The notes beneath the pieces are model-generated. The model did no database searches. It was not told where the DNA came from and saw only the letters and a list, made by a program, of their open reading frames with translations. Below are positions 45,682-51,348 of a stretch of 64,000 nt of DNA, piece after piece. This stretch comes from Bdellovibrio bacteriovorus (lineage in GTDB: Bacteria > Bdellovibrionota > Bdellovibrionia > Bdellovibrionales > Bdellovibrionaceae). Location of the stretch: assembly GCF_002208115.1 (NCBI RefSeq), contig NZ_CP020946.1, positions 2,108,001 through 2,172,000 of the forward strand. The letters are read 5' to 3'. Both the position numbers and the translations under genes were made by a program. Numbering within the stretch: the stretch's first letter is position 1; each line of letters opens with the position of its first letter.

Positions 45682-45881
45682 GTTGCACTCCGTTTATGAT
45701 TTCTCGTTTTAATTACGAAGGCTTAGAGTTACCGCGTCTCATTACACCGAGTCAATCTGGTAGGGGGCCGTAGCAGTTGAATTTGCGCCGCATTATGCCC
45801 AACGATTAGGCACAATTCACTTTCGCCGCTCTTTTAACGATGCATTGCTTTCCTAAAAAGCTCAGCGTACCTTCAGGGAAC

Positions 45882-46412
45882 ATGAATGACTTGAGTGACG
45901 AGGATCTATTAATAAAACTTTCCGAGGGCGAACGAAAAGCCCTGGATATCCTCTATCTAAGACATTCTGGGCGCGTCCTCAGTTATGCCCTGAAAAGACG
46001 CCTGTCTCAGGAACGCGCCGAGGACCTGTTGCAAATCGTGTTTTTACAGATTTACCGTAAAAAACACCTGTACGACCCCAAACACTCGGCCCTGGCCTGG
46101 ATCTATGTCATCACCCGAAGTGAGCTAAAAGACTATAGAAATCGCGAAATTAAAGATTTCCTCGAGTGGGACGATTCCCTGTCACAAACCGAAGGGTCCG
46201 CTCCTATCATGGAAGAGAAGGACGAGGCCGAAGCCCTGTTGCAGGACCTCAAGCCCCGGGAGCAGGAAATCCTGCGCCTTCGCTATCTGGACGAGATGGA
46301 ATACAATGAAATCGCGGCCCTGCTGCAGGAGTCCGAAAGCAACATCCGCCAGATTGTTTCGCGCAGTCTGAAATTCTTAAAAGGCCAAAAACCGAAAGGA
46401 GCGTCGAAATGA
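45882..46412 (+). CDS. ECF-type RNA polymerase sigma factor
   Basis: It encodes 176 residues from ATG 45882 (AGGGA upstream; a longer frame from 45840 is less likely). Region 2 (about 20-85) has RAEDLLQIVFLQIYRKKHLY, and region 4 (about 118-172) has LKPREQEILRLRYLDEMEYNEIAALL with a final DNA-contact helix SESNIRQIVSRSLKFL. There is no region 3, as in ECF sigma factors. The gene overlaps the next by ATGA, and that product is a membrane protein, so a sigma/anti-sigma pair is likely. Confidence 0.93.
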   Translation: MNDLSDEDLLIKLSEGERKALDILYLRHSGRVLSYALKRRLSQERAEDLLQIVFLQIYRKKHLYDPKHSALAWIYVITRSELKDYRNREIKDFLEWDDSLSQTEGSAPIMEEKDEAEALLQDLKPREQEILRLRYLDEMEYNEIAALLQESESNIRQIVSRSLKFLKGQKPKGASK

Positions 46413-46930
46413 AAGATATCAAAAAAGACTTCGAATCATTTGCTGAAGACAGCTCCCCGGCTGGCTCCTCTTTTGTCTTGAATAAAATCAACAGCACTCT
46501 GCAAGCCGAACTACCCTCCCCATGGAAAGTGGCCGGCAAACTGGGGATTGCCCACACGGTGGCAACTTCCCTGACGCTAGCTTCCTGTTCGCAGTTTGGT
46601 GTGACGCTGTTTAACACCGGTCATGATCTGATGCATTCGTTTATGAATATCAGCGAAACTTTCTGTCACAGCTTGTGTGGTGCCTACTATCTGGCGGCCA
46701 CTTTCCTGCTGGCGCGAATGATTTTGAACCGTGAAGAGTGGCTGGTGCTTTTGAAAAACCGCACTCTGAGCATTGCCAGTCTGGCTTTGGTATCTTTGGG
46801 AGTGTTCTCGTCTCTTAGCCACGAAGTCACTTGGGAAAGTGCGCTGTTATGGTTCTTTGGCGCCGCCTTGGGGGCCGAACTAATGACCGTACGCAAGCAG
46901 GCACTCAAAAGACTCCTTCACGATATTTAA
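46409..46930 (+). CDS. Membrane protein, candidate anti-sigma factor
   Basis: The 173-residue protein has a soluble N-terminal part of about 40 residues (DIKKDFESFAEDSSPAGSSF) and then about four membrane segments (about 45-65, 92-112, 120-138 and 142-158). Its ATG overlaps the sigma factor stop, so the two are made together. Anti-sigma factors of ECF proteins often have a short cytoplasmic domain followed by membrane helices; no zinc-binding HxxxCxxC motif is seen. The role as anti-sigma is inferred from position and layout. Confidence 0.65.
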   Translation: MKDIKKDFESFAEDSSPAGSSFVLNKINSTLQAELPSPWKVAGKLGIAHTVATSLTLASCSQFGVTLFNTGHDLMHSFMNISETFCHSLCGAYYLAATFLLARMILNREEWLVLLKNRTLSIASLALVSLGVFSSLSHEVTWESALLWFFGAALGAELMTVRKQALKRLLHDI

Positions 46931-47024
46931 TTCAATTAACGAGTCAGGAGCTTATTTTTGCTCCCCCACCTGGGGGAAAAGTGCGTCTCATACCTGAACG
47001 TCATTCTTAAAAATCTGAAATTAC

Positions 47025-47051
47025 TGTAGTTTTCTGTCAAGAAGCCGATAA
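47025..47051 (+). promoter_or_regulatory. Sigma28 (FliA)-type promoter of the fibre gene
   Basis: TGTAGTTT (47025-47032), an 11-base spacer and GCCGATAA (47044-47051) match the FliA consensus TAAAGTTT-N11-GCCGATAA at 14 of 16 positions with exact spacing. Only 7 bases separate it from the fibre ATG, so the transcript would be almost leaderless or the true start is ATG 47077. Confidence 0.7.
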
Positions 47052-47058
47052 GAGAGGC

Positions 47059-50000
47059 ATGAGCAAACGAACGTTAATGGTGCTCTGTTTGACCCTGTTC
47101 ATCTGTACTTTCTGGCTCCAGTTAGGTTATGCAGCACCTTCCAATCTGACTTATCAAGGGCGAATTATTAAAGCCGATGGCACTCCATTGGAGTACGGCA
47201 ACACCAGCTTCTTATTTGAAATCACCAGCCCCAACGGCAACTGTGTGATCTATCGCGAACAACGCGATGGTGTGAGTATGCTGAATTCCAAAGGCGTCTT
47301 TGATGTGCCGATCGGATCTGGCACCAAACTTTTCCCGGCGGATCCTCTGTTCACACTTTTGGATTCTTTCAACAACTCGCTGGTGCACAACTGCTTTGGC
47401 GGCGCCACTTACACGGCGGGCACTGGTGATGTGCGTCTGTTGAAAGTTCAGTTCCACGACGGTTCCGGCTGGAAGGTGATTTCGCCAGCTAATGAGATTC
47501 GCTCTGTTCCCTACTCTGCCTACGCTCTGTCGGCGGAAAAACTGGGAAACAAAGTTGAAGCTGACTTTGTTCTGAAAGCCGCAGTTCCAACCTGTTTGGC
47601 CAATGAGTTCCTTTCCTGGAATGGCACAGCGATGGATTGTGCTCCGGTCAGTGGGGCGGCTGGTGGCACAGTCACGGAAGTGACTTCAAGCAATTCCTAT
47701 ATCACCGTTGCAAACTCCACCTCGACTCCCGCCCTGACTCTGAACGTGGGCTCCGCCGCAGGCACTGTCGCTGCAGGCAATGACCCCCGCTTGTCTGACT
47801 CCCGCACGCCGACGGGTTCTGCAGGAGGAGACCTTGGTGGTTCCTATCCAAGCCCTTCCGTTGTAAAAATTCAGGGCGTGGCTGTTTCAAACACAGCTCC
47901 CACCAGCGGCAAGTTCTTTAAACACGACGGTGCTCAGTGGGTGCCTTCGACTATTGAAATCACCGACGTGAATAATCTGTCGACGAATCTCGCGGGCTAT
48001 CACACGACGGCCGCATTTAATGCGGCGGTGGGAAGTGCTAACTGCGCGGCTTATGAAACTCCGTATTGGAGTTCCGTGTCTGGATCGTTCCAGTGTCAGG
48101 CCATTAACGTTTCAGTCGCAGGCGATGTCAGCGGCAGTATTGGTGCCGTGACTGTCAATAAAATCAAAGGCGTGAACGTGGACACCACCGGACTGACCTC
48201 CGGGCAGGTTCTGAAATATGACGGCACGAAGTGGGCTCCGGCCAACGATAGCAATGCGGGCGGCACAGTCACGAATATCGCCACGGGCACAGGTCTTTCT
48301 GGCGGGCCGATTACTTCCACCGGGACTATTTCCCTGGCGAACACATCGGTTACAGCGGGCTCATACGGTTCCGGCACTCAGGTGCCAAGCTTCACCGTGG
48401 ATGCGCAAGGTCGGTTGACTGCGGCTGGCAACGTTTCCATCCCCACAGCCAGCGGTTCCACAACAGGTCTTTTAACTTCGGCCGACTGGACTAACTTTAA
48501 CAACAAACTCGGCACGGCTTCGACGTTTGCGGGCGATGTCAGCGGCACATCGGCTGCGATGAGTGTTGATAAAATCAAAGGCACGGCCGTCAGTGCCACG
48601 GCGCCGACTTCCGCGCAGATTCTGATTTACAATGGCACTCAGTACAGCCCCTCTTCAGTCAGCGGCGATGCCACGATGTCGACAACCGGCGCGGTGACTT
48701 TGAAAAACACCGGCACGGCGGGAACTTACACGAAAGTCACTACCGATGCTCAGGGCCGCGTGACATCTGGGACGACACTGTCTGCTTCCGATGTTCCAGC
48801 ACTGGATTGGAGCAAAATCACAACCGGCAAACCAACGACTTTGTCGGGTTATGGTATCACCGATTCAATTCAAAATGCCGGTGGCACACCGAGTGTGCAA
48901 TCCGGAACGGTCGCCAGCCGCCCAGCAGCAGCCACGGCAGGACGTCTTTATATTGGCACGGATGACAACTCCCTTTACCGCGACACCGGAAGTGCGTGGG
49001 TCAAAGTCGGCGATGGCGCCGGATCCAATGGTGTGACGAGTGTCACAGCGAGTGCCCCTTTGGCTTCCAGTGGTGGTGCGACTCCGAATATCACGATCAC
49101 TCAGGCCAACACCACTACCAATGGGTATTTAAGTTCGACAGACTGGAACACGTTTAACAACAAACTGGGCACGGCTTCGACGTTCTCTGGTGATGTGAGT
49201 GGAACCTCCAGTACGACCAGTGTTGATAAAATCAAGGGGAAATCCGTCACCCCGGCGGCCTATGCAACAGGCCAAACTTTGCGCTATAACGGTACGGACT
49301 GGGTAAATGCTCTTTTAGGTTTTGCTGATATCAGTGGCACGATTGCCACGTCTCAGTTGCCGGTGGTGCCGGTTTCCAAAGGTGGTACGGGTTTATCTTC
49401 TGGCACGGCCAATGGCGTTTTGTATTTTGATTCCTCCTCGACGATGGCCGCCACAGCGGCTGGAACAGCCAATCAGGTGTTGCGAATTCCTGGAGCTGGT
49501 GGTGCACCTTCATTTGGCGCCATCAATCTGGCTCAGTCTGCGGCGGTGACTGGAACATTGGCCGTGGCAAATGGTGGTACCGGAGTCAGTTCATTGACCG
49601 CCAATCGCCTGCTGGCTAGTGACGGCACCGGAGCCACCGTGACCGCCTTTACGTGCGCTGTAGGGCAACTGGTGACCTTTGATGCTGCGGGAGTGATGGG
49701 CTGCACGAGTTACGCTTCTTCGGGCCTTTTTGCCAATGGCGGGAATAGTTTTGGTGCCGCGGCGACTTTGGGTACTAACGATGCTCAGGCGTTGAATCTT
49801 GAAACCAATAGTACGACGCGTATGACGGTGCTTAGTACAGGGGAAGTGGGTATTGGCACAACCACCCCCACATTCCCATTGGAAGTTCAGGCATCTGCCA
49901 CCACCAGCAAAGGCATCCAGATCAACAATACAAACAACACCGGGGGCGCTTACATCAACGCCAAAGCCGGAACCAACAGCCTCAGCCTCGGCACTTGGGG

Positions 50001-51348
50001 CCAGGGCAGCGGAAGTGCCCTGACTTACATCGAATCGAATTCCAACTGGAATTTCAAAATCAACACTTACTCCAACACCGCCATTACCTTTGCAACCAAC
50101 ACTAATGCTGGATCCAACGAAAGAATGCGCATCGATAACGTCGGGAATGTCGGCATTGGTACGACCTCCCCGTCCTCCCTGTTACATGTGACCACCTCAG
50201 CCGCGTCACCTCCGGCCGTGCTCGTGCGTAACTCTTTGTCTCCGGCTCCGACGGCGACGGTAACTCAGAACTTGCACGCGATTTGGAATACAATCGTGGT
50301 CGGATCTGCACAGCCATTTACCGGAGCGCTTTACGGGGCCGTAAATCGTATCGAAGATTCAGCCGGGCAAACAGGCAACATCAGTAATGCTATTGGCTCG
50401 GTTAACGACGTTCATCACAAATCAGCCTCCACGATGTCCAATGCAACGGGTCTGCAGGCCAATGTGCAAAACACTTCCACCGGTACAGTGACTCTGGCCA
50501 AAGCGGCCTATCTGACGGTTGCCAACACCGGCGGCGGAACTATCGATACGGGTTATGGACTGCATATCGGGTCTATTGCAGGAACCACAAAGTACGGCAT
50601 CTATCAGGATGACACGGCCTCAACGAACGTCTTCACCGGTAATACCGGTATCGGGACCAATTCGCCCAACACCAAACTGCATGTCGAGGGAAATACCTTT
50701 ATCAAAGACAGACTGTACGTTTATAACAACTCGGGCTGGGGGGCTACGACTCCGGGTATTGCGCTGGCGATTGGTGATCAGGACACGGGCTTGGACTGGG
50801 TGTCTGACGGGGTTTTACAGATCTATTCCAACAATGCCGCTCGAATGCATTTTGCCATCAATGGCAACGTGGGGATTGGAACCACGACCCCGGGATACAG
50901 ACTGGATGTGAATGGAACCTTGCGAGGATTTGGGATCACCGACTCTTCAGATATCCGCCTGAAACGTGACATTGCTTCGCTGTCTTCTTCCGAGGCCTTG
51001 CAACGCATTCTGAAGATTCAAGGTGTCAGCTACAACTGGAAAAATCCAGAACATGGCAAGCGCCCGCAACTGGGCTTTATCGCCCAAGAGCTTGAAAAGA
51101 TTTATCCAGAGCTTGTCGAAACCGACCCCCAGGGAATGAAGTCCGTGAATTACTCACACTTGGTGTCCCCGTTGGTGGAAGCTATCAAGGCGCTGTATGA
51201 TGAAGTCAGTGCCTTGAAAGACTCGCTGGCCGACAAAGATCAGCGTATTCTGGCTCTGGAGCAGGACAAAGCCCAAAAAGACAAAGAGCTGGCAGAACTG
51301 AAAGCCAGGATGGATCGGCTGGAAAAAGCTGTGCTTAACAGCAAATAA
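47059..51348 (+). CDS. Giant secreted tail-fibre-like adhesin with S74 intramolecular chaperone
   Basis: The 1429-residue protein has a signal peptide (about 1-26, cleavage near GYA-AP) and an N-terminal domain (about 28-160, [19 protein letters not shown]). A long repetitive shaft follows, with four KIKG-type repeats (DNA 47866, 48160, 48571, 49228) and four GIGTTTP-type repeats typical of phage fibres. The C-terminus has the Peptidase_S74 motif SDIRLKRDI (Ser1297 and the following Lys), and a coiled coil of about 50 residues closes it. In phage endosialidases this domain trimerises the fibre and then cuts itself off. Bdellovibrio is known to use such mosaic adhesive trimers to contact prey. 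The promoter is of sigma28 type. Confidence 0.92.
48484..48583 (+). repeat. 100-bp imperfect direct repeat in the fibre gene, copy 1
   Basis: It encodes a segment starting [15 protein letters not shown] and ending in DKIKG. A second copy lies 657 bp downstream at 49141-49240 ([15 protein letters not shown]). Both keep the same reading frame (219 codons apart), so recombination between them would delete or add one block of the shaft. Confidence 0.85.
49141..49240 (+). repeat. 100-bp imperfect direct repeat in the fibre gene, copy 2
   Basis: This is the partner of the copy at 48484-48583. It differs mainly at third codon positions, which suggests an old duplication under selection. Confidence 0.85.

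Follow-up and report, generated by a model that had tools for sequence, protein, structure and literature searches.

The consensus TTAAG-N16-CCGATA of Bdellovibrio was derived from 140 mapped attack-phase promoters, and the same work identified FliA as the attack-phase regulator in B. bacteriovorus, with a regulon that includes non-flagellar surface genes (Karunker et al. 2013, PMC3627812). A further report places the Tad/Flp pilus operon under FliA control, shown by a heterologous E. coli assay (PMC5430801). Caulton et al. 2024 (PMC10769870) describe the mosaic adhesive trimer (MAT) superfamily, whose tested members form trimeric fibres displayed on the attack-phase surface; a conserved beta-rich domain of ~130 aa follows the signal peptide, and a C-terminal S74 domain with an SDxxxK motif is present in 13 of 21 members. 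A search for promoter or message architecture of MAT genes turned up nothing in the places covered, and a survey of open-access literature returned nothing relevant on leaderless genes in Bdellovibrio. Each of three elements is already known on its own: the control of attack-phase genes by sigma28, the MAT fibres and, elsewhere, leaderless genes. Here, we analyze a fibre gene and its upstream region in a 64,000-nucleotide stretch (the window, C1:2108001-2172000) of a 3.77-Mb single-contig Bdellovibrio genome, together with the orthologues and paralogues of this gene.

RESULTS

A MAT-type fibre gene and its upstream neighbors

The fibre protein is ordered as a signal peptide, a putatively beta-rich N-terminal domain, a repetitive fibre and a C-terminal S74 chaperone/protease (Table 1). 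Peptidase_S74 (PF13884) matches residues 1297-1353 with an E value of 6.4e-18, and the C terminus contains SDIRLK, an SDxxxK motif, giving the combination of S74 and SDxxxK known from MAT proteins. Residues ~905-1049 are similar to the solved bd2133 (8ond) and to 8ojn, and S74 fibres were also matched. The N-terminal 195 aa occur 18 times in the genome and were found in all 24 genomes of the genus. By sequence, the N-terminal domain, the S74 domain, SDIRLK and the similarity to bd2133 assign the window fibre to the MAT family.

Directly upstream of the fibre gene lie an ECF-type sigma factor gene and an overlapping gene for a 173-aa protein, which is also encoded upstream of the fibre orthologue in genome G007 (identical to that of B. 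bacteriovorus kdesi, L072). The 173-aa protein is possibly a partner or anti-sigma factor, in which case a sigma/anti-sigma pair might be linked to the fibre. The hairpin between this pair and the fibre gene is present in three of the four orthologues; G006 keeps the stem with a changed loop, and G007 lacks it.

Table 1. Features of the fibre locus (positions in the window) and the related giant lipoprotein genes
Feature	Coordinates	Strand	Basis or remark
ECF-type sigma factor gene (Sigma70_r2 and r4), upstream neighbour	45840..46412	+	Pfam
173-aa protein with hydrophobic stretches, overlaps sigma gene	46409..46930	+	no Pfam match
Hairpin CCCCC-ACCT-GGGGG between upstream sigma-factor pair and fibre gene	46963..46976	.	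sequence
Partly decayed palindrome copy GTCTCATACCTGAAC	46985..46999	+	perfect copy at G007 orthologue
Weak -35 region CTGTAGTTT	47024..47032	+	sequence, orthologue comparison
Sigma28 (FliA) -10 box GCCGATAA, then G	47044..47052	+	sequence, orthologues, family logo
Fibre gene, MAT-type, 1429 aa	47059..51348	+	ORF list, Pfam S74 match, similarity to bd2133
Start codon ATG, its A the predicted transcription start (+1)	47059..47061	+	fixed gap 7, C/T before ATG, rare Shine-Dalgarno
Signal peptide, 25 residues	47059..47133	+	by inspection; start conserved in orthologues
GNACGT element (GAACGT), codons 4-6	47069..47074	+	common to most MAT genes and four unrelated giant lipoproteins
Giant lipoproteins, same order	L306:451-3783, L307:531-5345, L309:1649-5254, L310:508-6966		Ig-like, CUB or RCC1-type domains

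A conserved -10 box beside a poor -35 region

The sequence-only reading had described a two-box promoter with an N11 spacer that ends 7 bases before the ATG of the fibre gene. The bases and coordinates are exact: TGTAGTTT (47025-47032), N11, GCCGATAA (47044-47051), 7 bases and the ATG at 47059. It had also called the promoter near-perfect, which is an overstatement. The -10 box matches the sigma28 consensus at 8/8 positions and contains the CCGATA(A) of the FliA regulon. The -35 core TGTA agrees with TAAA at 2/4 positions, and CTGTA agrees with the published Bdellovibrio TTAAG at 1/5; a FliA-regulon -35 box (TTAAG or TAAA at the right spacing) is not found in the window copy. Given such a poor -35 region, the promoter may be weak or activator-dependent. 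When the window gene is compared with its three nearest orthologues, the -10 box, the ATG and the 7 nt between them are kept, AAGCCGATAAGA and CATGAGCAAA.GAACGT are invariant, and the -35 region varies. The expectation of a sigma28 motif at orthologous fibre genes was thereby borne out, all three orthologues having the -10 box.

How informative is a two-box match in this genome? Motif counts were compared to those of the reversed pattern as a control. With up to 3 mismatches allowed, the E. coli consensus TAAAGTTT-N11-GCCGATAA shows no enrichment (58 genome sites versus 59 in the reversed control), so a two-box match carries no weight alone, and it was discarded as evidence. The strict pattern TAAG-N14..17-CCGATAA is not enriched either (5 versus 4), and TAGTTT-N10..12-GCCGATAA occurs a single time genome-wide. 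The genome encodes FliA; as a local yardstick, the flagellin genes were inspected, and the 300 nt around their starts yielded no CCGATA box.

A 7-nt gap to the ATG defines a lineage-wide gene class

CCGATAA-N3..14-ATG occurs at 120 genome sites compared to 23 in the reversed control. Among the first 100 CCGATAA-to-ATG matches listed, 29 have a gap of exactly 7, and other gaps average ~6; in these 29 sites, G follows CCGATAA in 19 and C precedes the ATG in 21. The same preference appears in a sample of 864 kb, made up of the window and 40 evenly spaced stretches totaling 800 kb, where 6 ORFs of at least 80 aa start at gap 7 versus 0.36 per position elsewhere, further downstream.

The MAT family provides a larger set. 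Of the 104 MAT gene starts collected, 71 have a gap of exactly 7 and 91 a gap of 5-9. A logo anchored at the ATG, built from 63 non-redundant gap-7 genes, shows T at -35 in 75%, T/C at -34, A/C at -33, A at -32 and CCGATAAG at -14 to -7, a register that matches the TTAAG-N16-CCGATA derived from transcription start sites (PMC3627812). The promoter form proposed to recur at other fibre genes was recovered, with a sigma28-type -10 box in nearly all MAT paralogues; part of this conservation is inherited, as the paralogues share descent.

Three further features fit a leaderless message. Base -1 is C or T in 98% of gap-7 MAT genes compared to 59% of other genes. Shine-Dalgarno-like 4-mers precede 4% of gap-7 MAT genes versus 49% of sample genes, and in the window a GAGG ends one base before the ATG, leaving no usable Shine-Dalgarno site. 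The window gap of 7 coincides with the class-wide peak, a fixed short distance from -10 box to start. If the A of the ATG is taken as +1, both boxes fall into standard register with a pyrimidine-purine start, which is independent support for transcription starting at that A. A leaderless message, as the sequence-only reading had offered for this gene, is thus the best reading of the sequence, given a -10 box in orthologues and nearly all MAT paralogues at a fixed 7 nt from the ATG. The first 45 nt fold with an energy like that of other genes (-5.1 versus -5.6), and unusual 5' structure was discarded.

The layout extends well beyond this genome. CCGATAAG-N6-ATG was counted at 340 sites versus 19 in the control for 24 Bdellovibrio genomes, 152 versus 25 for 42 genomes from the rest of the family, and 233 versus 40 for 75 genomes of the order's other families. 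These counts point to the leaderless sigma28 layout as a lineage-wide gene class with the window fibre among its members. A MAT-like gene of another Bdellovibrionaceae genome (L078:3001-4596 region) has CCGATAAG-N6-ATG, and the layout is therefore not limited to the genus. Other genes of the class include L213:1015-1416, encoding 134 aa with a DnaJ-like C terminus, which shares its promoter layout with a MAT gene ~1.9 kb downstream (L213:2899), and L215:2565-2987, whose product is a short protein with an HNH endonuclease domain, not expected among attack-phase genes.

GNACGT marks the 5' ends of MAT and giant lipoprotein genes

A second conserved element lies just inside the coding region. ACGT is present within the first codons of 70 of the 84 non-redundant MAT genes (83%) compared to 9.7% of sample genes. 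G stands two bases before it in 99%, the mirror C is seen in only 36%, and the element always occupies the sense strand. It falls 5-33 nt downstream of the predicted transcription start, at a loose distance from the promoter, and the ACGT copies are spread over all three reading frames (50/10/10). Most MAT copies without ACGT differ from it by one base. Thr codons after Gly, Cys or Arg are ACG in 66/78 cases, and T follows ACG in 68/73 cases versus 13/81 at other genes. A few leadered MAT genes (L303, L252) appear to have GNACGT before the ATG.

When the genome was searched for CCGATAA with GNACGT after it, 19 sites were found versus 5 in the control. Besides MAT genes, these sites include four giant surface-type lipoproteins (1111, 1605, 1202 and 2153 aa; Table 1), which combine the leaderless sigma28 layout with GNACGT; BLAST detected no similarity of the four to the fibre. 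They are candidate surface adhesins. That proteins which show no homology with the fibre have this layout in common speaks for a regulatory signal. GNACGT as a general signal of leaderless translation was rejected: of the 19 gap-7 genes outside the MAT family, only 4 contain ACGT, and the element therefore tracks adhesins, not leaderlessness. It may nevertheless help leaderless translation.

A palindrome upstream of MAT genes

The 15-bp palindrome GTCTCA-N3-TGAGAC has 88 genome sites with at most 1 mismatch compared to 7 in the control. Matches of at least 10/12 occur upstream of 50% of MAT genes versus 7.5% of sample genes, the 3-bp spacing is kept in 49/52 cases, and the positions recur with a helical periodicity of nearly 10 bp (jitter test, P = 0.004). 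By sequence, the palindrome is probably the operator of a regulator. No T-runs were seen at the palindrome, which rules it out as a terminator stem. It is a weak candidate for a general sigma28 partner, with a -10-like box within 160 nt in 5/19 sample sites versus 15% of random positions. The palindrome also lies upstream of other genes with exported products, and a perfect copy (L170:4747-4761) precedes the apparent fliA start by ~170 nt.

DISCUSSION

We consider it quite probable that the window gene encodes a MAT prey-contact fibre which is transcribed by FliA from the A of its ATG as a member of the leaderless class, with GNACGT as a control site of surface adhesins. FliA (sigma28) polymerase, made in the attack phase, would initiate at the A of the start codon and yield a message with neither leader nor Shine-Dalgarno site, whose 5'-terminal AUG the ribosome would probably read directly. 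The signal peptide would then direct export of the fibre, and its display would precede contact with prey, as for other MAT proteins. Attack-phase expression of this fibre is suggested by the motif together with published work. GNACGT, a sense-oriented second signal ~12-20 nt into the message, would be a control site that surface adhesins share, acting at the RNA level or as a polar DNA site. In reporter work, a missing ribosome-binding site strongly lowers attack-phase expression (PMC12622784); those fusions perhaps did not keep the leaderless arrangement, and leaderless translation here may be modest or in need of help.

Could the message have a leader after all? The real promoter might lie upstream, in the TCTTAAAAATCTGAAAT block or as read-through from the ECF-sigma pair, with CCGATAA coincidental or secondary. 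The TCTTAA..TGAAAT block upstream of the -35 region is indeed conserved in orthologues, the -35 beside the window -10 box is poor, and the 128 nt between the fibre gene and the upstream ORF leave room for another promoter. A leader, however, would have to serve a gene without a usable Shine-Dalgarno site, in a family where such sites are rare; a distant start leaves the fixed 7-nt gap of the whole gene class unexplained; and the hairpin stands between the upstream pair and the fibre in most orthologues. We regard this alternative as improbable. A still smaller chance, close to negligible, is given to translation from ATG 47077 with an 18-nt leader and the same sigma28 start, which the sequence-only reading had put forward as the possible true start. 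This codon is in frame and downstream of the expected transcription start. It has no Shine-Dalgarno site in front, the G007 orthologue (MSKRTSWVLC...) lacks it, and its use would cost the signal peptide the conserved, positively charged SKR of its n-region; other MAT genes start at the first ATG, with M[RK].. as the first residues. The absence in G007 and the loss of SKR rule ATG 47077 out as the start codon, and ATG 47059 is retained with the leaderless reading.

For GNACGT, the simplest rival is that it reflects inherited protein sequence only, a Gly-Thr in the signal peptide of the paralogues, and no nucleic-acid signal. MAT genes are paralogous, and 50 of the 70 ACGT copies are in the Thr frame. 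Against this, the other 20 copies encode different residues in the other two frames, the choice of Thr codon and of the next base is strongly skewed, and the element occupies the same place in four non-homologous giant lipoproteins, which makes descent by itself an unlikely account. A much stronger rival, to which we give somewhat less than an even chance, holds that GNACGT is the DNA operator of a dedicated transcription factor and not an RNA signal. The element lies within downstream-operator reach of the predicted transcription start, and the separate palindrome, which precedes about half of the MAT genes, suggests that a transcription factor controls these promoters. An operator of this kind fits poorly with the strong one-sidedness, the constant sense orientation and the loose distance from the promoter; as GNACGT is one-sided and on the sense strand only, an RNA element is favored over a polar DNA site. 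Evenly balanced, in our estimate, is the broader proposal of a new cis-acting mark of surface adhesins, MAT fibres and giant lipoproteins alike: GNACGT, close to the start of their leaderless sigma28 messages, would be read by a putative RNA- or DNA-binding factor that would coordinate, localize or time their synthesis.

If the preferred reading of the fibre gene as a leaderless FliA target is true, leaderless messages controlled by the flagellar sigma factor supply much of the predator's repertoire of prey-contact fibres, so that one switch would link motility and prey recognition while Shine-Dalgarno control is bypassed. It would also supply testable gene starts for the whole class, predict giant surface proteins co-regulated with MAT fibres, and offer in GNACGT a concrete motif with which to seek the factor controlling prey-recognition proteins. 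The union of sigma28 control, MAT fibres and leaderless genes as a lineage-wide class, and GNACGT, had no match in the open-access literature searched.

Among known systems, the FliA attack-phase regulon of Karunker et al. 2013 (PMC3627812) shares the -10 CCGATA and, at the level of the family, the -35 register; its main text does not describe leaderless starts, whereas the class defined here has its ATG at the expected +1. The MAT superfamily of Caulton et al. 2024 (PMC10769870) shares with the window fibre the signal peptide, the conserved N-terminal domain, putatively beta-rich in the window fibre, and the S74 SDxxxK C terminus. The Tad/Flp pilus operon is similar in that non-flagellar prey-interaction genes are under FliA; the consulted parts of PMC5430801 do not describe a leaderless arrangement for it. 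The leaderless genes of Deinococcus-Thermus and Actinobacteria (PMC12340547, PMC3898074, PMC3160421) resemble the class in having a -10 element a few fixed bases before the start and no Shine-Dalgarno site. Those genes use the housekeeping TANNNT box, whereas the Bdellovibrio class would use the CCGATAA of the flagellar sigma factor and belong to one regulon and one life phase.
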